This document shows positions 1 to 27,518 of a stretch of DNA of 34,381 nucleotides, in pieces. Position 1 is the first letter of the stretch, and every line of letters begins with the position of its first letter. The DNA comes from Acidimicrobiia bacterium (GTDB taxonomy: Bacteria > Actinomycetota > Acidimicrobiia > IMCC26256 > DASPTH01): positions 1 through 34,381 of the forward strand of contig JBBDHW010000021.1 of NCBI GenBank assembly GCA_040880805.1, in the 5' to 3' direction. A program made the translations under genes and the position numbers. The notes beneath the pieces are model-generated. The model was given only the letters and a program-made list of their open reading frames with translations, had not been told where the DNA came from and did no database searches.

Positions 1-102
1 GACCCGATACCGCGCGCCCCGACCCACTTGACAACACGGCGATTCACACCTCAGCTGCTGGCCGTGAGGCAAGCTCTACTCAATGGACTCGCCCCTGCTT
101 GA
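1..102 (+). CDS. possible 3' end of an upstream gene, partial at window edge
   Basis: The frame beginning at base 1 is open up to a TGA at 100-102, giving 33 residues that end NGLAPA. It overlaps the start of the restriction endonuclease gene by 20 nt, the kind of tight overlap common in restriction-modification operons. The visible tail carries no motif I recognise and does not match the end of the EcoRV methyltransferase as I remember it. Over this length an open frame in GC-rich DNA could be chance, so this is only a candidate. Confidence 0.3.
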   Translation, partial: DPIPRAPTHLTTRRFTPQLLAVRQALLNGLAPA

Positions 103-856
103 TTGGCTCCGGGAGCAAACAGCAGGTTGGACGCCGTCGATCATCGGAGTCTTCCGCGAGGACGCTCCACATGAGTGGCCGATCACCGCGTCATCCGCTG
201 AGGAGCTCCGAGTGCAGCTCACCACGCACGGTCATCTGCTACCGCTCCCAAGCGAACCCGCCGCCCTGGCGAACGTCATGGAGATCGAGCTTCGACAACA
301 TTTGACCGAAGCGGCTGAGCCATTGGCAGACGCGAGCATCGTCGCCGGCACCGAACGGTCGTATCCAGACCTCGAGTTCGCTGGTGGCGCGTTCGGCGGA
401 GGATTCCGCGCCGTCGACATCAAGTGCGCTCGCCGACGCGTTCGACAATCAGGCGGGCCCGCAACAATGCTCAACAACCGCATCGCGCTCTACACCGGCA
501 ACACCTACTTCTTGTGGCCCCAGCTGAAGTTCGGCGGGATCATGCGACCCTTCGAGCAATACGAAGAGCTGATCTCTGTGGTCGTCATCTACACGTTCGA
601 ACCGGAGCTACCGGAGCGCATCGCGGACGTCGAAGTCACCGCCCAGGAGACCTGGCGGATTGGCTCACGAAGCCGGGCGTCGGCGACCAGGGAATACATC
701 GGCTCGGTGCAGAACATCGAAGCGCTGACGAACGGTGCCGGCGAGTTCGCTACTGCCGAAGATTTTTACTCCTATTGGCGCCACAGCACGCGCAACTGGA
801 AGAAATCACCCGAGGCAGAGAAGCTGCTCCGCCAGGCCCTGAACCGAGAAAGCTGA
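83..856 (+). CDS. EcoRV-family type II restriction endonuclease
   Basis: The 257-residue protein has the PD-(D/E)XK core in EcoRV form: Y-P-D at 94-96 and D-I-K at 112-114. The spacing between the two acidic residues is 16, the same as Asp74 to Asp90 in EcoRV. Similarity continues beyond the core. A PFEQYEE segment (156-162) matches PFDQYIA, an I-G-S at 206-208 follows the recognition-loop position, and an EDFYSYWR segment (226-233) matches EDEFLDYWRN near the C-terminus. Glu67 or Glu69 is the likely counterpart of EcoRV Glu45. Length fits the family (EcoRV 245). ATG 83 is the first usable start in this frame. The expected role is Mg-dependent double-strand DNA cleavage. No methyltransferase is visible in the window, so the partner, if any, lies upstream. 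The recognition loop (199-204) differs from EcoRV, so specificity cannot be assumed. Confidence 0.85.
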   Translation: MDSPLLDWLREQTAGWTPSIIGVFREDAPHEWPITASSAEELRVQLTTHGHLLPLPSEPAALANVMEIELRQHLTEAAEPLADASIVAGTERSYPDLEFAGGAFGGGFRAVDIKCARRRVRQSGGPATMLNNRIALYTGNTYFLWPQLKFGGIMRPFEQYEELISVVVIYTFEPELPERIADVEVTAQETWRIGSRSRASATREYIGSVQNIEALTNGAGEFATAEDFYSYWRHSTRNWKKSPEAEKLLRQALNRES

Positions 857-859
857 CCT

Positions 860-2368
860 CTACGCAGCCTTCCCGCGCAGACGTTCCGCTTCAGCGTTCA
901 ATCGCGACAGCAGATCATTGTCGACCGAGATCACGAGTGACATGTCGAGCGCGACTTTGTCTTCCCCCGTCAAGGAGCCCTCGATCAACTGTGGAAGCTC
1001 GTCACCGAGCGCCACCCAGCGGTCGATGTAGTCCGCGACCTGCTGATTGGGCTTGTCGAGCAGCGACGCGTGCAGTTGCACGAGATCCGCGTATTGATCG
1101 CACGTCCGCGACGATCGCGCGCGACTTGACCAGCACAGCATGCGACCGTGCAGCAGGATCAACCGCTCGGCAAGGCCCAGGATGCGCTCGGCGTCGCCTG
1201 GCTCCCCCGGTGCGCCGAAGGCCAGCAGAACTTCGCTCTCCTCGAAGATCCGATCGAGATCCTCGACGAGCTGCACGGCTTCCTGGTTGTCACGTTGGAC
1301 GTGCTGCATCGCTCTGCGCCCGTCGAACGGCCTCTCGAACCGCCGTGTCCCTTCACGAGCTGTCGCCTCATGGTGTCCGATTGCCGGCAGAGACGCTTCG
1401 AGCCTCATGGCGAAGAGCATGTACTCCCAGCCGGGTGGTTGCTCGCGCTTCAATTGCTCGATGCGTTCACGACTGGCCCTCGACATCGCCAGCGCGTTTG
1501 TAGTGCGCGACTTCACGTGCTCGATGACGTGATCGACATCGGCACGAGTTGGCGGTCGACCGGCCATCACGAGCCAGGGCGCGTTTACGAAGCGCACAAC
1601 CGTACGCAGTCGGAGTCCGGCGGATCGCAGGACGCGTCGGCGCGCATACCTGCACACGACTCGATCGTCGCTCGCCAGCCACTTCAACCGGCTCAGAAGA
1701 CCGTCGTAACTCCCGTAGACGCCGAGCAGGTAGATGAATGGAAGCAAACAAAGAGTCAGCAGCGCGGGAGTGACCAGTTCACGAAGCATGTCCGTAGTTG
1801 CGACATCTCCGATGTTCTCGAGAACGCGCGTCAAGCTGTAGAGCAGCAAACCCAACCCCGCGACGGCAACCACACGTGTGAGACACCCGCGCGCGGGTGC
1901 GAACTCTTCACGCGTGGCCGAGACAGCGAGCGTCGCGCCCAGCAGCACGAGTAGAGGCACGAGCAAGAACTCCACCGGCAAGCTGAAGCTGGACAGGTTC
2001 GTCAGGAACTCAACGATCACAGTCAGTGAAAGCGCGCCGAGCATCGTGTGGCGAAAGAAGTGCGGATCCTCGACGACGTGGTCGTAGCGCGCGAAGAGGA
2101 CGAGCGCCGTGCCGACGAACCAGAAGAGCGTCTCCGAGAACAGGGACCAGTCCCATAGGAGCGCTGCGTAGAGGCCGAAGACGACCGCTGCCACGTACGC
2201 GACCATGAGGACGAGTGGGACCGAGATCTTCGGAGTAGCCACCGCTGCGACGACACGGACGAGCGCCCGACGGGTCCCTGGCCACAAGACGGCCGCGGCG
2301 AGTCCAACGGAGACCCAAAACACGATGACGAACTCACGGTTGTCGAAGAGCCTCGGTACCGGGTTCAC
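860..2368 (-). CDS. multi-pass membrane protein with cytoplasmic helical domain, unknown function
   Basis: The 502-residue protein has about seven hydrophobic segments in the first ~230 residues (for example FVIVFWVSVGLAAAVLW near residue 14 and LTLCLLPFIYLLGVYG near residue 210). A soluble, charged, mostly helical C-terminal half of ~260 residues follows. I do not recognise the family and see no nuclease, NTPase or enzymatic motif. It is convergent with the restriction endonuclease, with only 3 nt between the stops, and divergent from the XRE regulator. This places it in the accessory block and makes a defence-related role conceivable, but that is guesswork from position. The ATG at 2368 is taken because the first hydrophobic segment begins soon after it. 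Confidence 0.72.
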   Translation of the reverse strand: MNPVPRLFDNREFVIVFWVSVGLAAAVLWPGTRRALVRVVAAVATPKISVPLVLMVAYVAAVVFGLYAALLWDWSLFSETLFWFVGTALVLFARYDHVVEDPHFFRHTMLGALSLTVIVEFLTNLSSFSLPVEFLLVPLLVLLGATLAVSATREEFAPARGCLTRVVAVAGLGLLLYSLTRVLENIGDVATTDMLRELVTPALLTLCLLPFIYLLGVYGSYDGLLSRLKWLASDDRVVCRYARRRVLRSAGLRLRTVVRFVNAPWLVMAGRPPTRADVDHVIEHVKSRTTNALAMSRASRERIEQLKREQPPGWEYMLFAMRLEASLPAIGHHEATAREGTRRFERPFDGRRAMQHVQRDNQEAVQLVEDLDRIFEESEVLLAFGAPGEPGDAERILGLAERLILLHGRMLCWSSRARSSRTCDQYADLVQLHASLLDKPNQQVADYIDRWVALGDELPQLIEGSLTGEDKVALDMSLVISVDNDLLSRLNAEAERLRGKAA

Positions 2369-2488
2369 AAGCGGCCTTCTCTCCAGATCGGATCACACCA
2401 GTGTAACTCGAACGCACGTTCGTACATCCCGGACATCTCGGACGTGCCAGGCATGTGGACGCACGGCGGTCCGAGTCTCCTGGTCGAG

Positions 2489-2506
2489 TATGGGTTATTC
2501 CCCATA
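2489..2506. promoter_or_regulatory. palindromic operator over the promoter of the XRE gene
   Basis: A perfect inverted repeat, TATGGG-N6-CCCATA, ends 10 nt before the ATG at 2517. A -10-like hexamer TATGCT (2505-2510) overlaps its right end and lies 6 nt before the start codon, so a leaderless transcript is likely. An XRE protein binding here would block its own promoter; autoregulation is usual for such proteins but is inferred here. Confidence 0.55.
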
Positions 2507-2516
2507 TGCTCTGGGC

Positions 2517-2825
2517 ATGAGCGTCGATCTGGCCACCCACATCCGAGAGCTTCGCCAGGCCCTCGGCTGGACGCAGGACGAGCTCGCGAAGCGCGCGCGG
2601 ATCGACCAGGCCGACCTCTCGCGCATCGAGCGAGACAACATCGATCCTCGTTGGTCGACGGTGAACAAGGTCGTCAACGCACTTGGTGAGACCTTCGAGC
2701 TGGCCGCCGCTCCGACGACGGTTCGGCCGGCGCTCACTGCCGAGACCCGTGAGAACAGCCGAAGGACGGCGCTGTCGGCTGCGCCACGGCGTCGAACCCC
2801 CAAGGCAGTTCCCATCAAGCGATGA
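2517..2825 (+). CDS. XRE/Cro-type helix-turn-helix transcriptional regulator
   Basis: The 102-residue protein has an HTH_3 domain at roughly residues 7-62. It begins THIRELRQALGWTQDELA, continues with the recognition helix segment QADLSRIERD, and ends with a dimer-type helix VNKVVNALGE. A basic, disordered tail follows (RRTALSAAPRRR). The frame stays open upstream to 2205, but start 2517 is preferred. The HTH begins right after it, the upstream translation is not protein-like, and a -10 plus operator sit just before it. The antitoxin-like size fits HigA/HipB-type regulators, yet no clear toxin is adjacent. It probably regulates itself and perhaps the divergent membrane gene 148 nt away. Confidence 0.8.
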   Translation: MSVDLATHIRELRQALGWTQDELAKRARIDQADLSRIERDNIDPRWSTVNKVVNALGETFELAAAPTTVRPALTAETRENSRRTALSAAPRRRTPKAVPIKR

Positions 2826-2910
2826 CGCTCCTTCGTCCGGCGCGGCGCGGGATACAGAGCGCTGGCCGCTTCGAGTGCGCGCGTCCTGAGCCCTCCGACA
2901 CAATGGAGCC

Positions 2911-3147
2911 GTGGAGACCGAGTTCGTCGAACTCGACGGCAGCCTGCAGGTCAACCTCAGCGGGCTGGGACTGGCTCCTCATAGCCGGTACCTCGTCACG
3001 AAAGAGCCCGACGGCAGGCTGATCCTCACCCCCGTGGCCGCAACGTCCGAGAGCGAGCAGAGCCTTACGGCGAATGCGGCGCTGCGCGAGCGGATCGAAG
3101 CCAACCGTGCGGATCCCTCTCGGATGATTCTTCGCCCGAGCCGCTGA
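2911..3147 (+). CDS. small protein of unknown function, first gene of a two-gene unit
   Basis: The 78-residue protein has a short beta-rich N-terminal half (segments such as LQVNLSGLG and GRLILTPVA) and a charged helical C-terminus. The N-terminal half is vaguely like SpoVT/AbrB swapped-hairpin antitoxins, but I cannot assign it firmly. The start is GTG 2911. A -10-like CACAAT (2899-2904) ends 6 nt before it, which fits a leaderless message, while the GGAG at 2905-2908 is too close to be a normal ribosome site. The stop is 5 nt before the next GTG, so the two genes are almost certainly cotranscribed. Confidence 0.6.
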   Translation: METEFVELDGSLQVNLSGLGLAPHSRYLVTKEPDGRLILTPVAATSESEQSLTANAALRERIEANRADPSRMILRPSR

Positions 3148-3152
3148 CGATC

Positions 3153-3491
3153 GTGGAAGCACTCATCGCAACAATCCTCGAACGCATCCTGGACGATGGC
3201 GTCCTCGATGCCGCGGACCTCGCGCGCGTCACGCACACCTCCCGCCGCGCCGTCGCACGGTGGTGTGCGGGCGAACGCAGTCCAGCTCGCGACACGGAAG
3301 AGCGACTCCTCGAGACGACGGCCGTCGTCGATTTCCTTCGCACGCATCTTCGACGCGACGCTGCGCGGCTCTGGATCCGCAGCCCGAATAGCGACCTCGG
3401 GTACGCGAAGCCAATCGACCTCATCGCCGGCGGCGAGTACATGCGCGTCATCGGGGTTGTCCTGTCAATGGCCGAGGGCGTTCCGGTCTGA
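3153..3491 (+). CDS. ParS/MbcA/Xre-type antitoxin-like protein (toxin-binding domain)
   Basis: The 112-residue protein has an N-terminal HTH-like part, residues ~15-50 including TSRRAVARWCAGE. Its C-terminal part (~70-112) follows the DUF2384 pattern: LWIRSPN, G-Y-A-K-P-I-D-L-I, then AGGEYMRVIGVVLSMAEG. In characterised systems this domain binds and neutralises a RES-domain toxin encoded just downstream. Here the 700 nt downstream hold no RES gene, so this is a solitary antitoxin, a relic, or a plain regulator. It starts with GTG 3153, 5 nt after the preceding stop, without a strong ribosome site. Confidence 0.65.
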   Translation: MEALIATILERILDDGVLDAADLARVTHTSRRAVARWCAGERSPARDTEERLLETTAVVDFLRTHLRRDAARLWIRSPNSDLGYAKPIDLIAGGEYMRVIGVVLSMAEGVPV

Positions 3492-3505
3492 GAACAGCAC
3501 AGGCA

Positions 3506-3822
3506 CGTGGGCCGCGGTGGGGCCGCGGGGAGCGACGCAAATCGGTCACGCGGCTCGTGCGGTGTCAGCGGAAGTTCGAGCCGTGCAGTCCGCGGCGCGA
3601 ATCGTGGGCCGCGGATGGGCCGCGGGCCTTCGGAAAACGCTGCGAATCGACGACAACCGTCGAACACTGAAACCGCAGGTCAGGCCGCCGATCGCCTACA
3701 GCTCCGGCCCCAGGTCAGGGCCCTTCACGGTCTCCGGCGTACAGGCCGACTCGCTGCCCCACCGGTCCTGACCTGCGGAAACGTGGGTCAGGACCGACCG
3801 TGGGCCGCGGTCGGGCCGCGAG
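3506..3822. repeat. three copies of a 24-bp GGGCCGCG double box
   Basis: Near-identical 24-bp units lie at 3506-3529, 3603-3626 and 3799-3822. Each starts CGTGGGCCGCGG, then two variable bases, then GGGCCGCG, so each is itself an imperfect direct duplication of GGGCCGCG. Differences among copies are confined to the two central bases and one near the end. Function unknown. Confidence 0.6.
3673..3796. repeat. inverted repeats built on GGTCAGG
   Basis: CCGCAGGTCAGG at 3673-3684 is a perfect 12-bp inverted copy of 3767-3778. In addition, 3763-3773 (CGGTCCTGACC) is a perfect 11-bp inverted copy of 3786-3796, with a 12-nt loop. Another CAGGTCAGG lies at 3711-3719. No T-run follows the hairpin, so it does not look like a simple terminator. 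Confidence 0.55.
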
Positions 3823-3858
3823 ACGACGGCCCTGGAGCTGACGGTGTGGTGATCCGCG

Positions 3859-4137
3859 GTGTCCTCGAGGACTCGGGGCGACTGCGGGTTGGCGGCGTAC
3901 CTGATCGGTCGGGGCGAGGACCGCGTCGAAGCGTGGACGCGAGCCCATCACGAGCGCATCCGGCTCGGCGATGCGGCGCGAGCGGCTCGTTGCGCGTTCT
4001 GGTTGGCGTTTGGTCTGTTGCACACGGCTGACCTGGCCCGTGGGGGCGGGTGGGTCGACCCGCACCGGTTCGCGGCAGCGCTCGGGACCGCGGTGCAGGC
4101 TGTGCGCCACAACGTCTGTCTTCGCCACGGATTGTGA
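3859..4137 (+). pseudogene. decayed fragment of a LuxR-type regulator (TPR-like region)
   Basis: Residues ~11-60 of this frame (LAAYLIGRGEDRVEAW, then RAHHERIRLGD, ARCAFWLAFGLL, GGGWV) read like the first helical repeats of the large LuxR-family regulators of actinomycetes. Those proteins typically carry AAxLxGxxxxAxxAWERAHxxxxxxGDxxRAARCAFWLGxxL. The family is usually 500-900 residues and continues into more TPR-like repeats and a C-terminal HTH. Here the similarity stops at about 4053 and the frame ends at 4137. No start signal or ribosome site is evident. I read it as a remnant rather than a gene. Confidence 0.5.
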
Positions 4138-4228
4138 GCAATTTCTCGAAACGCCGGTCACCCGCGCCGCCCGCTCACTCGTCGGTCTGTGCAGGGACGG
4201 CAAGCCAGGGACGTGAGGGAGGTCGGCG

Positions 4229-5170
4229 ATGGCCGCGGTGATCGAGATCGACGGGCTCCACAAGGAGTACTCGAGACGGAGGCGACAGACCGTCGCCATC
4301 GACGGGCTCGACCTGTCGGTGCCCGAAGGCGGCGTGTTCGGCTTCCTGGGCCCGAACGGCTCGGGCAAGACCACCACGATCCGCTGCCTGCTCGGGCTGG
4401 TGCGACCCACGGCGGGGCGGGTCTCGCTGTTCGGCGCCGAAGCCCCGAGTGGCCTTCCCGGCGTGATCGGGAGGATCGGCGCGATCGTAGAGACGCCTGC
4501 GTTCTTCCCGACGATGAGCGCGCGCGAGAACCTGCGCCTGCTCGGCGCGATCGACCACATCGGCGTGGCGCGCGTCGACGCCATGCTCGAGCGGGTGGGG
4601 CTGGCCGATCGGGCAGGCGACCTCGTTCGGCGCTACTCGCTCGGGATGAAGCAACGGCTCGGCCTCGCGGCAGTGCTTCTGAAGGACCCCGCGCTCGTGA
4701 TCCTCGACGAGCCCGCCAACGGGCTCGATCCGGCCGGGATCCGTGAGACCCGCGAGCTGCTGCGTGGCCTCGGTGCCGAGGGGCGCACCGTATTCGTGTC
4801 GAGCCACCTGCTCACCGAGGTGGAGCACACGTGCGATCGCGTCGCGATCCTCAATCGGGGTCGGTGTGTGGCGACCGGCACGGTCGACGAAGTGCTCGAC
4901 CGAAGCGACGGCGGCGTGATCGTTCGCGTCGCCGACCTCGCGGCGGGGGCGGTCGCTCTCGCGCGCGCCGGGATGACGGTGGAGCGCCGCGACGGCCACC
5001 TGCACGTCGCGGTGCTGCCCGAGCTCGCGGCGAGCGTCACCGAGGTGCTCGCCGCCGAGCGGCTGTGGGTATCGGAGCTACGTGCGGTGGAGCACAGCCT
5101 GGAAGAGCGGTTCCTCGAGCTGACCGCGCCCGAGGAACCCGACCGTGACATCGAGGAGGTACAGGCATGA
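4229..5170 (+). CDS. ABC-2 type transporter, ATP-binding protein
   Basis: The 313-residue protein has Walker A GPNGSGKT (41-48), signature YSLGMKQR (136-143), Walker B ending LDEP around Asp160-Glu161, and the switch histidine in SSHL at ~193. The C-terminal ~90 residues form the accessory region typical of drug- or lipid-exporting DrrA/CcmA-like ATPases. GGGAGG 5-10 nt before ATG 4229 is a good ribosome site. The stop overlaps the permease start by 4 nt (ATGA at 5167-5170), so the pair is translationally coupled. Substrate unknown. Confidence 0.93.
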   Translation: MAAVIEIDGLHKEYSRRRRQTVAIDGLDLSVPEGGVFGFLGPNGSGKTTTIRCLLGLVRPTAGRVSLFGAEAPSGLPGVIGRIGAIVETPAFFPTMSARENLRLLGAIDHIGVARVDAMLERVGLADRAGDLVRRYSLGMKQRLGLAAVLLKDPALVILDEPANGLDPAGIRETRELLRGLGAEGRTVFVSSHLLTEVEHTCDRVAILNRGRCVATGTVDEVLDRSDGGVIVRVADLAAGAVALARAGMTVERRDGHLHVAVLPELAASVTEVLAAERLWVSELRAVEHSLEERFLELTAPEEPDRDIEEVQA

Positions 5171-5982
5171 ACCTGTTGATGGTCGAGATGCGGCGGGCGT
5201 TGCACCGCCGACTCGTGCGGGTGCTGGTGGTCCTCGCGCTCGTCGCGATCGTGATCGCCGGCTTCGTCGAGTTCTTCGCCAGCGTGGGACTCGACGTGGT
5301 CGCGCTGCAGGCGAAGGATGGCCACGACCCGGCGGTGATGACCGACTGGTGGATTGCGGGCTCCGGGGATGGAGTGCTCTCCGTTTCCGCGTTCCTCCTC
5401 TTGATGGGCGGATTGATCGGCGGCGCTTCGGTCGTGGGCGCCGAATGGCGGGCGGGGACGATCAGCACCGTGCTCACGTGGGAGCCGCGCCGGCTCCGCC
5501 TCCACGCCGCGCGGGTGGGGTCGGCGGGGCTGCTCGCCGCGGTCATCGCGCTCGCGTTGCAGGTGGTGTTCCTCCTGGCGTTCCTGCCGTCGGTGCTGGC
5601 TCACGGCACCACCGTCGGTGCCGACGGCGAATGGGCGCTGTCGCTCGCGGGCGCGCTCGCCCGCGTGTCCTTGCTCACCGCGACGGCCGCGGTGCTCGGG
5701 TGCGCGATCGCGACGCTGGGGCGCAACACCGCGGCCGCCATCGTCGTGGCGTGGGGCTGGCTCGCCATCGGCGAAGGGCTGGTGCGCGGCCTGCTGCCCG
5801 AGTACTCGCAATGGCTGGTCGGCGAGAACGCCACCGTCGTGCTCACCTGGGCGGGTCTCGACAGCCGCGATGCCACGAGCTTCTCGCCGGTAACGGCGGG
5901 CGCAGTGCTGGCCGTCTACACCGTGTCCTTCGCCGTGCTCTCGGCGGCGCTCTTCCAGCGGCGTGACGTGGCGGGTACCTGA
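5167..5982 (+). CDS. ABC-2 type transporter, permease protein
   Basis: The 271-residue membrane protein has about six hydrophobic segments: residues ~15-37 (RVLVVLALVAIVIAGFVEFF), ~76-95, ~117-143, ~158-180, ~183-200 and a last one at ~244-265. A hydrophilic loop follows the first helix. The segment GGLIGGASVVGAEWRAGTI resembles the conserved GxxxxExxxGT region of ABC-2 permeases. It partners the preceding ATPase through a 4-nt overlap. No exported substrate can be deduced. The next gene starts 44 nt downstream with its own ribosome site. Confidence 0.88.
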   Translation: MNLLMVEMRRALHRRLVRVLVVLALVAIVIAGFVEFFASVGLDVVALQAKDGHDPAVMTDWWIAGSGDGVLSVSAFLLLMGGLIGGASVVGAEWRAGTISTVLTWEPRRLRLHAARVGSAGLLAAVIALALQVVFLLAFLPSVLAHGTTVGADGEWALSLAGALARVSLLTATAAVLGCAIATLGRNTAAAIVVAWGWLAIGEGLVRGLLPEYSQWLVGENATVVLTWAGLDSRDATSFSPVTAGAVLAVYTVSFAVLSAALFQRRDVAGT

Positions 5983-6026
5983 GCCTCCGAGCGCCGTCGC
6001 CGATCGTCTGGGAGGATCACGCTCTC

Positions 6027-6719
6027 ATGGTTGCGCACGCGATCGTCGGCGAGGTGAGCGACCCGATCGGCATCGCGGTCGCCGACGCGCTCGCGGCCGT
6101 GCTGGGCATGACCGATGCGGTCTTCCCCGCGACCGGCACCTCCGCGCAGGTCGCCACCGACGACGTTGTCGACGCGGATCGCCTCGTGACGACATTGTTC
6201 GCCCAGGAAGGCGCGTCGTTGGTCAGGCTCGCGCGCCTCTTCGTCGACGATCGCAACGCCGCAGAGGATCTCGTACAGGAGGCATTCATCCGTCTCGCAC
6301 GGTCGACCCACCGGATCGCCGATCCGGCGAAGGCGCCCGCGTACCTCCGCTCGATCGTGCTCAACCTCGCGCGCGACTCCAACCGCCGCGGACTCGTGTC
6401 GATGCGTCATCAACTGCCGTTCGACGACCGGGTCGCGTCGATCGAGGATCAGATCACGGTGCGCGAGGACCAGCAGCAGGTGATCGACGCACTGCGCGAC
6501 CTTCCGCACCGCCAGCGGCAGTGCCTCGTGCTCCGCTACTACGACGAGCTCGGCATCGACGACATCGCCGACACGATCGGGTGCTCGCGCAACTCGGTGA
6601 AGACCCACCTCCAGCGCGGGCTCGCCGCGCTCGAACGGAAGCTCGCCGCCGCCGCCGCCGACGCGGCCGAGGACGAGGATGCGGCGCGCATCGCGGTCTC
6701 GCGAGGAGCCCCGTCGTGA
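6027..6719 (+). CDS. ECF-like sigma-70 family RNA polymerase sigma factor
   Basis: The 230-residue protein carries sigma region 2 at about residues 50-120, with the signature segment RNAAEDLVQEAFIRLA and then KAPAYLRSIVLNLARD. Sigma region 4 lies at about 150-205 (LPHRQRQCLVLRYYDELGIDDIA, then the HTH with CSRNSVKTHLQRGLAALE). An extra ~45 residues precede region 2; they may be real or reflect too early a start, though ATG 6027 has a GGGAGG 12 nt upstream. The stop overlaps the next gene's GTG, so a membrane partner is made with it, the usual genetic layout of an ECF sigma factor and its regulator. Target promoters are not identifiable here. Confidence 0.88.
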   Translation: MVAHAIVGEVSDPIGIAVADALAAVLGMTDAVFPATGTSAQVATDDVVDADRLVTTLFAQEGASLVRLARLFVDDRNAAEDLVQEAFIRLARSTHRIADPAKAPAYLRSIVLNLARDSNRRGLVSMRHQLPFDDRVASIEDQITVREDQQQVIDALRDLPHRQRQCLVLRYYDELGIDDIADTIGCSRNSVKTHLQRGLAALERKLAAAAADAAEDEDAARIAVSRGAPS

Positions 6720-7351
6720 GCATGCTCGAGGAGCGACTGCGGGGTGCGCTGCTCGACGAGGCCGCCGGCGTCGAGGAGAGCCCCGATCTCTTCGCACGGG
6801 TGCAGCTCAGCGTGGAGGACGACCGCCGTCGTGCGCGCCAGCGCCGACGCGGCGGGTGGGTCCTCGCGTGCGTGTTCGGCGCGCTCGCGGCTGTGCTCTT
6901 CGCAACAACCGACTACCAGGAGGGAGCCGTCGTCATGGACTGGTGGGTGCTCGAGGTGCTCACCGATGTCGTGTTGCTCGTGATCGCGCTCTGGCTCGGA
7001 CCGCTCATCAAACGGTTCGGCAAGAGCTACGCCGCCGACGTGTTCCGTGCGAACCCGCGAACCGGCAAGAGCTTCATCGTGCTCACCGACATCGCGTACT
7101 ACCTCATCTTCATGTCGTACATCTTGTTCACCATGAGCTTCGAGCCGAAGGGTTCGTGGGGCGAGACGGTCACGGCCGCGCAGCTGCAACACGAGACCGC
7201 GCGTGTCGCGGGCATCCTGTTGATCATCGGGCTATTGCACGGGCTCAACCTGCTCGCGCTCCCCGTGATCGGTCGGCTGCTCACCCTCAACCGGCAGCTC
7301 GACGAGTCGGCAACGCCGACCGCGCCGCGACCGCCGGACCCGAGCTCGTAG
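6716..7351 (+). CDS. four-helix membrane protein coupled to the sigma factor, possible anti-sigma regulator
   Basis: GTG 6716 is chosen over ATG 6722 because GAGGAG at 6703-6708 is at the right distance and the GTG overlaps the sigma stop as GTGA. The 211-residue product has a ~40-residue charged N-terminus (LEERLRGALLDEAAGVEE, then a basic RRRARQRRR). Four hydrophobic helices follow, at about residues 45-62, 78-102, 124-145 and 166-190. The acidic cytosolic N-terminus and the position suggest a sigma-factor regulator. No zinc-binding HxxxCxxC motif is present, so it is not a classical ZAS anti-sigma factor. The assignment is positional. Confidence 0.72.
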   Translation: MSMLEERLRGALLDEAAGVEESPDLFARVQLSVEDDRRRARQRRRGGWVLACVFGALAAVLFATTDYQEGAVVMDWWVLEVLTDVVLLVIALWLGPLIKRFGKSYAADVFRANPRTGKSFIVLTDIAYYLIFMSYILFTMSFEPKGSWGETVTAAQLQHETARVAGILLIIGLLHGLNLLALPVIGRLLTLNRQLDESATPTAPRPPDPSS

Positions 7352-7362
7352 GAACCGCGCAC

Positions 7363-8550
7363 GTGCTCCTCCTGGCGCCGCTCGCGGCGCTCCTCGTCGT
7401 GGGAATGGTCGTCGCTCTCACCGGCGCGCGGAGCATCGCGACGCGGCGAACGAGGCACCCGTCGGAGAGCGGCGTCGCGGCCGGGGTGGTGCTGGTCGGG
7501 ATCGCGGTCGGCGTCGTCCTCGTGGTCGGCGTGTTCGTGCTGGTCGTCGGCCGCGGCGGGGAGACCGATGAACCCGGTGGCCGCCGAGAACGGGTTCCGG
7601 CAGCCGCCGAGACGGGCGCCGACCGACCGGCGGAGACCCGTTCGGCGGCGACGTCGGCGTTGGCGGCTCGTGAGCCCACACTGCGCGAGCTCGAGACCGG
7701 GACCCGTGAGGTGGTCGTCACTGCACCGACCGGCGACGGGTTCCCGGCTCCCGAGGTGGTCGACGAGATCGACGGCAGAGTGGTGCTGCGAGTGAGCGCG
7801 TTCGGCTTCGAGCCGTCCGTGAGCGGACGGGTGGAGCAGTGCGTGGCGACTCGCACGGGAGTCGACCGGTGCGGCAACCACTTCCGCGTTCAGTTCGACG
7901 TCGCCGGGGCGGCGCGCTTTCAGTATCTCGTGGGAGATCGGTACCTCGGTGCGGGCGCGCCGACGTGCGGAACGGGCGCCATCGGGTGCGTCGTCCGGCT
8001 CACGGATGGCACCACGACCGCCATGGTGAGCACCGTGTTCGGCCGCCCTGTGGGCCGTAGCCGGGTGACGATGACGCCGCGCCCGACCGCGCTCGCGTCG
8101 GGCGAGCGCGTGGAGGTGTCGCTCTCCGGGTTCACACAAGGCGATGCCGCGCGTGTGACGGTGTGCGCGGCGCCGGCGACGACCGGGAAGCGCCGATGCG
8201 GCACTCCCGGCCCGGTCGCGCGTGTGCGGATCGGCGACAACGGCGCCGCGACGACGCGGCTCGTGCTCCGAGAAGAGGACGTGGGATCCGAGCGGGTCGC
8301 GTGTGGTCGGGACACACCCTGCGCGATCATCGTGACCACCGACTCGGGTGTCGCGACCGTCCCGCCGGTCGAGATCACGTTCGCGTCGGGTCCCGGCACG
8401 TCGTACGACGCGACCCGGCTGGCGCTCGGGCTCGCGCTGGCCGCGATCCTGCTCGGGGTCGCCGTCCTCCTCGTGCGCACGACCGACTGGCGCAAGCCGT
8501 CGGAGGCCGAGACGCCCGTGATGGACGCGGCGCCGCTCGCCGACCTCTGA
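7363..8550 (+). CDS. membrane-anchored protein with two neocarzinostatin-like domains
   Basis: Start GTG 7363 is 11 nt after the preceding stop and has AGGAA 8 nt upstream. The 395-residue protein has two N-terminal hydrophobic helices (2-22, 39-65), a linker, two beta-rich domains (~117-226 and ~235-350), and a final helix (~353-376) before a short tail. The second domain follows neocarzinostatin closely: TMTP, then ASGERVEVSLSGF, a first Cys pair, IGDNGAATTRLVL, a second Cys pair in ACGRDTPC, and VEITF at the end. The first has the same Cys-Cys/Cys-Cys arrangement. In neocarzinostatin this immunoglobulin-like fold carries an enediyne; in other actinomycete proteins the ligand is unknown. 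Third gene of the sigma unit. Confidence 0.75.
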   Translation: MLLLAPLAALLVVGMVVALTGARSIATRRTRHPSESGVAAGVVLVGIAVGVVLVVGVFVLVVGRGGETDEPGGRRERVPAAAETGADRPAETRSAATSALAAREPTLRELETGTREVVVTAPTGDGFPAPEVVDEIDGRVVLRVSAFGFEPSVSGRVEQCVATRTGVDRCGNHFRVQFDVAGAARFQYLVGDRYLGAGAPTCGTGAIGCVVRLTDGTTTAMVSTVFGRPVGRSRVTMTPRPTALASGERVEVSLSGFTQGDAARVTVCAAPATTGKRRCGTPGPVARVRIGDNGAATTRLVLREEDVGSERVACGRDTPCAIIVTTDSGVATVPPVEITFASGPGTSYDATRLALGLALAAILLGVAVLLVRTTDWRKPSEAETPVMDAAPLADL

Positions 8551-26625: not shown

Positions 26626-27518
26626 AAGTTCCGCAGGTCGAACTCGACGTCGGCGAAGCGCGCCGCCTCCTTCTGCAGTTCCTCCACCGTCCACCGACCG
26701 TCCTTGTGAATGCGGTCGACGAGCGAGAACGGCTTGAAGAGCGACACGTCGCCGCCCTGGACGAAGAACACCCGACCCTTGATCGGGCAGTCCTCGGTAG
26801 CCAGATAGGCGACGAACGGCGACACGTTGCCCGGGTCCGACGGGTTGAACTCGCCCGCTTTCGGCTGCGGACGGTTCTCCACGCCGGGGATCGTCTGGAT
26901 GAGGCGTGTCATCGCCGCGGGGGCGATGGCGTTGACGCGCACGCCGTAACGATCCAGTTCCATCTGGGCGATGATCGCCAGCGTCGCGATGCCGGTCTTG
27001 GCCGCGCCGTAGTTCGTCTGGCCGACGTTGCCGAAGAGTCCCGACGTAGACGACGTGTTGATCACCGACGCCTTCAACGGCGTGCCCGCCTTCGCCTGGT
27101 CGCGCCAGTACGCGGCGGCGAAGTGCAACGGCACGAAGTGGCCCTTCAGGTGGACGTGGATGACCGCGTCCCATTCTTCTTCCGACATGTTGGTGATCAT
27201 GCGGTCGCGCAGGATGCCCGCGTTGTTCACGAGCACGTGCAGCTCGCCGAACGTGTCGAGCGCCGTCTGGATCAGGCGCTGACCACCTTCCCAGTCGGCG
27301 CAGCTGTCGGTGTTGGCCACCGCCTCGCTGCCCATCGCCTTGATCTCGTCGACGACCTCTTGCGCCGGCCCCGCGTCGGCGCCCGTGCCGTCTTCCTTGC
27401 CGCCGAGGTCGTTCACCACGACCTTGGCTCCTTCGCGCGCGAAGAGCAGCGCGTGCTCCCGCCCGATCCCGCGCCCGGCGCCGGTGATGACGGCCACCCG
27501 TCCGTCCAATGTGCCCAT
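26622..27518 (-). CDS. short-chain dehydrogenase of the MFE/17beta-HSD4-like group
   Basis: The 298-residue SDR has TGAGRGIG (12-19), then VVVNDLGG, which is typical of the peroxisomal multifunctional-enzyme and 3-hydroxyacyl-CoA dehydrogenase branch. It also has NNAGILRDRM, INTSSTSGLFGN with the catalytic Ser, and NYGAAKTG (Tyr-x3-Lys). The length beyond 250 residues comes from a C-terminal extension after the cofactor domain. GGGGGAG 9 nt before ATG 27518 is the ribosome site. It is probably a 3-hydroxyacyl-CoA or steroid-type dehydrogenase; the exact substrate is open. Confidence 0.88.
   Translation of the reverse strand: MGTLDGRVAVITGAGRGIGREHALLFAREGAKVVVNDLGGKEDGTGADAGPAQEVVDEIKAMGSEAVANTDSCADWEGGQRLIQTALDTFGELHVLVNNAGILRDRMITNMSEEEWDAVIHVHLKGHFVPLHFAAAYWRDQAKAGTPLKASVINTSSTSGLFGNVGQTNYGAAKTGIATLAIIAQMELDRYGVRVNAIAPAAMTRLIQTIPGVENRPQPKAGEFNPSDPGNVSPFVAYLATEDCPIKGRVFFVQGGDVSLFKPFSLVDRIHKDGRWTVEELQKEAARFADVEFDLRNF

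Follow-up and report, generated by a model that had tools for sequence, protein, structure and literature searches.

Described systems related to EcoRV

EcoRV is a model enzyme for the reading of DNA by proteins. It is known from the E. coli plasmid pLG13 (NC_005019.1; PDB 2ge5, 1b96), and its partner is an adenine methyltransferase together with an HTH regulator. Of 18 possible contacts in the major groove, 12 are made by the R-loop of the enzyme; the Q-loop, which carries Asp74, touches the minor groove, into which Lys38 reaches at the central step (PMC4081073). Relatives on the EcoRV side were found on plasmids and in viral contigs (Rhodothermus, Antarctobacter, Acinetobacter, Geobacillus, Leuconostoc, the loci L102-L137 and halovirus HGTV-1). 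They have the Pfam family and the active site in common with the nuclease described here. Unlike it, they keep a GSGxTxN R-loop and have a Dam-type adenine methyltransferase next to the gene, except for some viruses without any. C5-cytosine type II systems with Vsr resemble the present locus in their C5 methyltransferase and Vsr, but the nuclease here belongs to the EcoRV fold family.

An EcoRV-family nuclease at the start of a contig

The window analyzed here is a stretch of 34,381 nucleotides from an Acidimicrobiia bacterium, starting at base 1 of contig C21. The genome consists of 69 contigs with 3.49 Mb. The original prediction, made from the sequence alone, placed the first gene of the window in the EcoRV family. 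Judging from profiles and the predicted fold, the gene is a true member of this family. The only Pfam match of the 257-aa protein is Endonuc-EcoRV (PF09233), at 8.5e-10 and 38.9 bits (cut-off 25). EcoRV was found in the PDB with phmmer at 3e-4 when the protein was the lone query, and at 6e-14 with a profile of nine relatives, which gave no other match below 0.5. Profile-profile comparison with EcoRV resulted in 99.5% probability. As predicted, the spacing of the motif PD(96)-x15-D(112)-I-K(114) equals that of D74/D90/K92 in EcoRV (16 residues in both), and PFDQY and the C-terminal DYWR of EcoRV have aligned counterparts in PFEQY and SYWR. The start at position 83 is backed by the N-termini of two close relatives, L007 and L008.

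An AlphaFold model (AF2) reached a mean pLDDT of 89.3 from 21 sequences (38 with 3 sequences); since the input alignment includes EcoRV-side relatives, this model does not test the homology independently. The best 39 Foldseek matches of this model are all EcoRV chains. In the structural alignment (VIA), EcoRV (2ge5) superposes with Z 19.8 and 2.7 Å over 200 residues at about 22% identity. SwaI (PDB 5tgx; Z 13.5) and HincII (PDB 1tw8; Z 10.6) are the next-best folds; they share 8-10% identity and are clearly behind EcoRV. The expectation that EcoRV relatives are few is borne out: within the phylum, only 6 genomes out of 396 have a PF09233 match, and there is none among 60 relatives.

Table 1. 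Positions of the described features. Coordinates without a contig name refer to the window.
Feature	Position	Strand	Evidence or remark
EcoRV-family type II restriction endonuclease, 257 aa	83..856	+	PF09233, PDB profile, AlphaFold model, pN/pS
A60 codon at the place of EcoRV Lys38 (residue entering the minor groove)	260..262	+	ungapped alignment to E45
E67 codon (EcoRV E45)	281..283	+	invariant in 16 A+B members, also in 21
Q-loop equivalent TERSYPD (EcoRV QQNHYPD)	350..370	+	alignment
D96 codon (EcoRV D74, YPD)	368..370	+	invariant in 16 and in 21 members
D112-I-K114 codons (EcoRV D90-I-K92)	416..424	+	D and K invariant in 16 and 21 members
R-loop equivalent ASATREY (EcoRV GSGNTTN), predicted base-reading loop	677..697	+	alignment
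502-aa protein, hydrophobic N-terminal half, island cargo	860..2368	-	no family match
Xre-type HTH regulator, 102 aa, island cargo	2517..2825	+	HTH_31 8.9e-13
Xre/MbcA/ParS antitoxin-like protein, island cargo	3153..3491	+	PF09722 2.2e-5, barely above cut-off
attR-like copy of rnpB 3' end and hairpin, island right end	3733..3823	+	direct repeat of C22:4759-4669
C5-cytosine methyltransferase	C22:1167-2387		sole C5 match in genome
Vsr	C22:2378-2899		sole Vsr match in genome
D12 adenine methyltransferase	C42:88735-89775		no recognised nuclease adjacent; in 5/30 relatives of same order

A probable integrative island across two contigs

The gene was said to lie within 100 nt of the left edge, and 82 bases indeed precede it. 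The further statement that no methyltransferase is in view holds within the window, but only because the window starts at base 1 of C21, so that the sequence to the left is unread and not absent. A connection to another contig is provided by a 91-bp repeat (2 mismatches, 98% identity), which has exactly two copies in the genome, one on C21 and one at C22:4669-4759. The C22 copy begins no more than 25 bases before the end of a complete gene for RNase P RNA (rnpB, 271 bits) and enters a strong hairpin. In a head-to-head arrangement, with C22 and C21 connected by their left ends, the two copies become direct repeats that enclose an element of about 8.6 kb plus the gap. One copy is then adjoined by an integrase (Phage_integrase, 2.1e-24). 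The element combines what is expected of an integrative element, namely direct att repeats, an integrase and insertion at a conserved RNA gene. GC content is 0.61-0.67 inside and about 0.69-0.71 outside.

The order on the island would be att, integrase, Vsr, C5 methyltransferase, HNH/MTaX1 gene, gap, EcoRV-like nuclease, 502-aa protein, HTH regulator, ParS-like antitoxin and att. The join itself is inferred, since the ends of C22 and C21 do not overlap and there is no read or contig that spans the gap from C22:1 to C21:1; mis-binning is also possible in this incomplete assembly of 69 contigs. With this join, a single integrative island at the 3' end of rnpB, cut by an assembly break, would carry both halves of a restriction-modification system.

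On C22, the methyltransferase and Vsr were recognised by TIGR00675 (2e-47) and TIGR00632 (4.2e-37), respectively. They share the element with the nuclease, and the att repeat is their tie to the window. A gene for an HNH nuclease with a methylase-associated MTaX1 domain lies left of the methyltransferase and extends to the first bases of C22. Right of Vsr, a tyrosine integrase follows, preceded by an excisionase-like ORF (by eye). The earlier suggestion of either a partner just outside the window or a solitary enzyme was correct in its first part, with the partner found beyond the edge on C22; the solitary alternative found no support. The partner is not the adenine methyltransferase that was expected to the left, but the C5-cytosine methyltransferase with Vsr. 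In the sequenced part of the island no adjacent Dam or D12 methyltransferase is present, with 82 bp seen upstream of the nuclease before the unread gap.

Two groups of EcoRV-like nucleases with different methyltransferases

A scan of 84,980 species genomes revealed two close relatives of the nuclease, L007 (78%) and L008 (70%, truncated at residue 124). Directly upstream of each nuclease, on the same strand, lies a C5 methyltransferase; these methyltransferases are 81-84% identical to the one on C22. Search with the single sequence gave nothing in plasmids, only HGTV-1 in phages and nothing confirmed in viral contigs. When more genomes and viral contigs were searched with the PF09233 model and a profile, further members were found in G191, G222, G261, G646, G677, G950 and the viral contig L033. 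In the resulting tree, two groups are split with 100/99 support.

Group A comprises EcoRV and its relatives, with HGTV-1 on the A side on a long branch. A Dam-type adenine methyltransferase is present on 6 of 6 plasmids shown and in G289. At viral group-A loci, it was detected in 13 of 24 examined and a C5 enzyme in none of them. Since these viral loci were partly found through the R-loop pattern, the R-loop is not independent evidence for them; the linkage to the methyltransferase is. Group B comprises Actinomycetota and one tailed-phage contig. Here a C5 methyltransferase adjoins the nuclease in 10 of 10 loci, including this genome via the inferred join. Vsr accompanies it in six (this genome, L007, G191, G222, G261 and L033), and none was found beside the nucleases of G646, G677 and G950. 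The C5 methyltransferase of G950 is of another kind (33%) and seemingly frameshifted. The best explanation, with high probability, is that the window gene encodes the cutting component of a type II restriction-modification system and belongs to a sister subfamily of EcoRV linked to C5 methylases.

Alternatively, the nuclease could be solitary or stand outside the C22 module; methyltransferase and Vsr would then serve only the HNH/MTaX1 nuclease, with the EcoRV-like gene as a chance neighbor. The HNH gene directly adjoins the methyltransferase on C22. Moreover, the same methyltransferase family occurs in 8 sampled genomes of the class, of which 4 have an EcoRV-like gene; among the other four, an MTaX1-domain protein lies beside the methyltransferase in G562, G727 and G725, with no EcoRV-like gene next to it, and none was found in G582. 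However, ten independent loci tie the EcoRV-like gene to such a methyltransferase, most of them without an HNH_MTaX1 match, and the att repeat places the nuclease on the same island. This alternative is very unlikely.

A point against the preferred reading of a C5-methylase-linked system is that the HNH/MTaX1 gene lies between methyltransferase and nuclease here, unlike in L007 and L008. This genome has both EcoRV-like and MTaX1 proteins. Since the same methyltransferase family occurs with either kind of nuclease elsewhere, the nuclease partners have apparently been exchanged, or here stacked, round a fixed methylase. A tentative idea, to which we would give less than even chances, is that a single C5 methyltransferase on the island protects the host from both nucleases, unrelated enzymes of EcoRV fold and MTaX1-HNH type that would read the same site.

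MTaX1-domain proteins are also found beside the same C5 methyltransferase family at L147 5390-6922, L148 3773-4936 and L150 about 5880-7006. Their C-terminal parts differ, and one has a PD-(D/E)XK-like DGMPDFRIRLDDKRELTIECK motif (by eye). In G950 the different C5 methyltransferase by the EcoRV-like gene (L038 about 4100-5270, minus strand) has its C-terminal part in another frame. The tailed-phage or prophage contig L033 (IMGVR_UViG_2856766937_000001) carries a full cassette of EcoRV-like nuclease, C5 methyltransferase and Vsr at 1004-8372 beside a terminase; terminase- and portal-like genes were named by eye. Integrase-like genes lie beside the cassette also in G222 (L019 8720-10222) and G950 (L038 6099-7424), so that mobility of the cassette seems recurrent. 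Several viral contigs (L105-L117) and halovirus HGTV-1 (L012 5815-6408) have a short EcoRV-like gene of 197 aa, with no methyltransferase detected in the stretch examined. Such viral enzymes could be phage enzymes cutting host DNA.

Conserved catalytic residues and altered DNA-reading elements

The catalytic set E67/D96/D112/K114 is unchanged across groups A and B. Compared with EcoRV, in group B the R-loop is changed from GSGNTTN to SxTREY, the Q-loop from QN to ER and Lys38 to Ala. S-x-T-R-E-Y is invariant in the R-loops of group B, and Ala was found at the Lys38 position in 9 of 9 group-B members in the alignment. The GSGNT(x)N R-loop of the EcoRV isoschizomer type is thus absent from the window protein. 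Unaltered scissors together with altered reading elements form a pattern that would fit a new target. This argument is carried by the loops, because a C5 partner needs a cytosine in the site, yet GATATC has a cytosine too. A target other than GATATC, with protection by 5-methylcytosine, is the best reading.

As a homodimer, the nuclease would cut unmodified foreign DNA at a short palindrome that contains cytosine and differs from GATATC. The C5 methyltransferase would set 5-methylcytosine in the same site on host DNA and thereby block cutting, and Vsr may mend the T:G mismatches that arise by deamination of this base. Tyrosine integrase and excisionase would carry the module between hosts.

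It was also considered whether the enzyme might be an ordinary EcoRV isoschizomer that cuts GATATC and is served by an adenine methyltransferase elsewhere in the genome. It shares the Pfam family and the fold with EcoRV, and a D12 adenine methyltransferase, the one strong D12 match in the genome, is present on C42. Against this stand the changes in the R-loop, Q-loop and Lys38 equivalents and the C5 enzyme beside every group-B locus. GATATC is not avoided either (22 sites seen, 22 expected, ratio 0.99, although sites are few). The C42 enzyme is regarded as unrelated to M.EcoRV, to which it has no significant match; it has a weak distant match to the G289 enzyme (21%, 2e-9). Proteins 59-70% identical to the C42 enzyme occur in five relatives without an EcoRV-like gene, and it was rejected as the partner. 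An isoschizomer is extremely unlikely on these grounds, and a new target of the C5-linked system is preferred.

Avoidance of palindromes was analyzed in this genome (435 kb), in four other carriers and in four genomes where a search for PF09233 gave no match. No hexamer was consistently prominent in this sample, and no clear target candidate resulted. AGCGCT has a ratio of 0.59 here, but also 0.59 in the control G002. For CTGCAG the difference was mainly due to G677. GAGCTC is not avoided here; it was considered for the closest plasmid methylase homologue by a named nuclease (Haladaptatus, SacI family), whose specificity is not transferable because this homologue is only 41% identical.

The gene could also be a remnant that has decayed and lost its activity, for which its place at a contig end and the truncated copy in L008 might speak. 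This is exceedingly improbable, since the frame is full-length, all catalytic residues are present and pN/pS against L007 is 0.24 over 257 codons. Between this genome and L007, the methyltransferase has a corresponding value of 0.16 and Vsr one of 0.41; these values indicate that all three are kept as working proteins.

The sister group, with the active site of EcoRV, another base-reading loop, loss of Lys38 and a cytosine methylase as partner, represents a natural experiment in specificity change. Group B may yield a restriction enzyme whose target is new and probably contains GC. In a literature search of partial coverage, no description of an EcoRV-like nuclease paired with a C5 methyltransferase and Vsr was found; given this coverage, the novelty of the pairing is claimed with moderate confidence. 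The locus also illustrates that a restriction gene may look solitary as an artefact of assembly, and that repeats of att sites resolve such cases.

Further features of the window

At the right end of the island, two small genes are located at 2911-3491, the second with the weak Xre/MbcA/ParS match; no obvious toxin precedes the att site. Just past att, a short ORF (3859-4137) resembles a fragment of the N-terminus of a regulator (by eye). At 26888-26976, a tRNA-Pro of 89 bases was predicted by ARAGORN, unsupported by Rfam at the gathering score.
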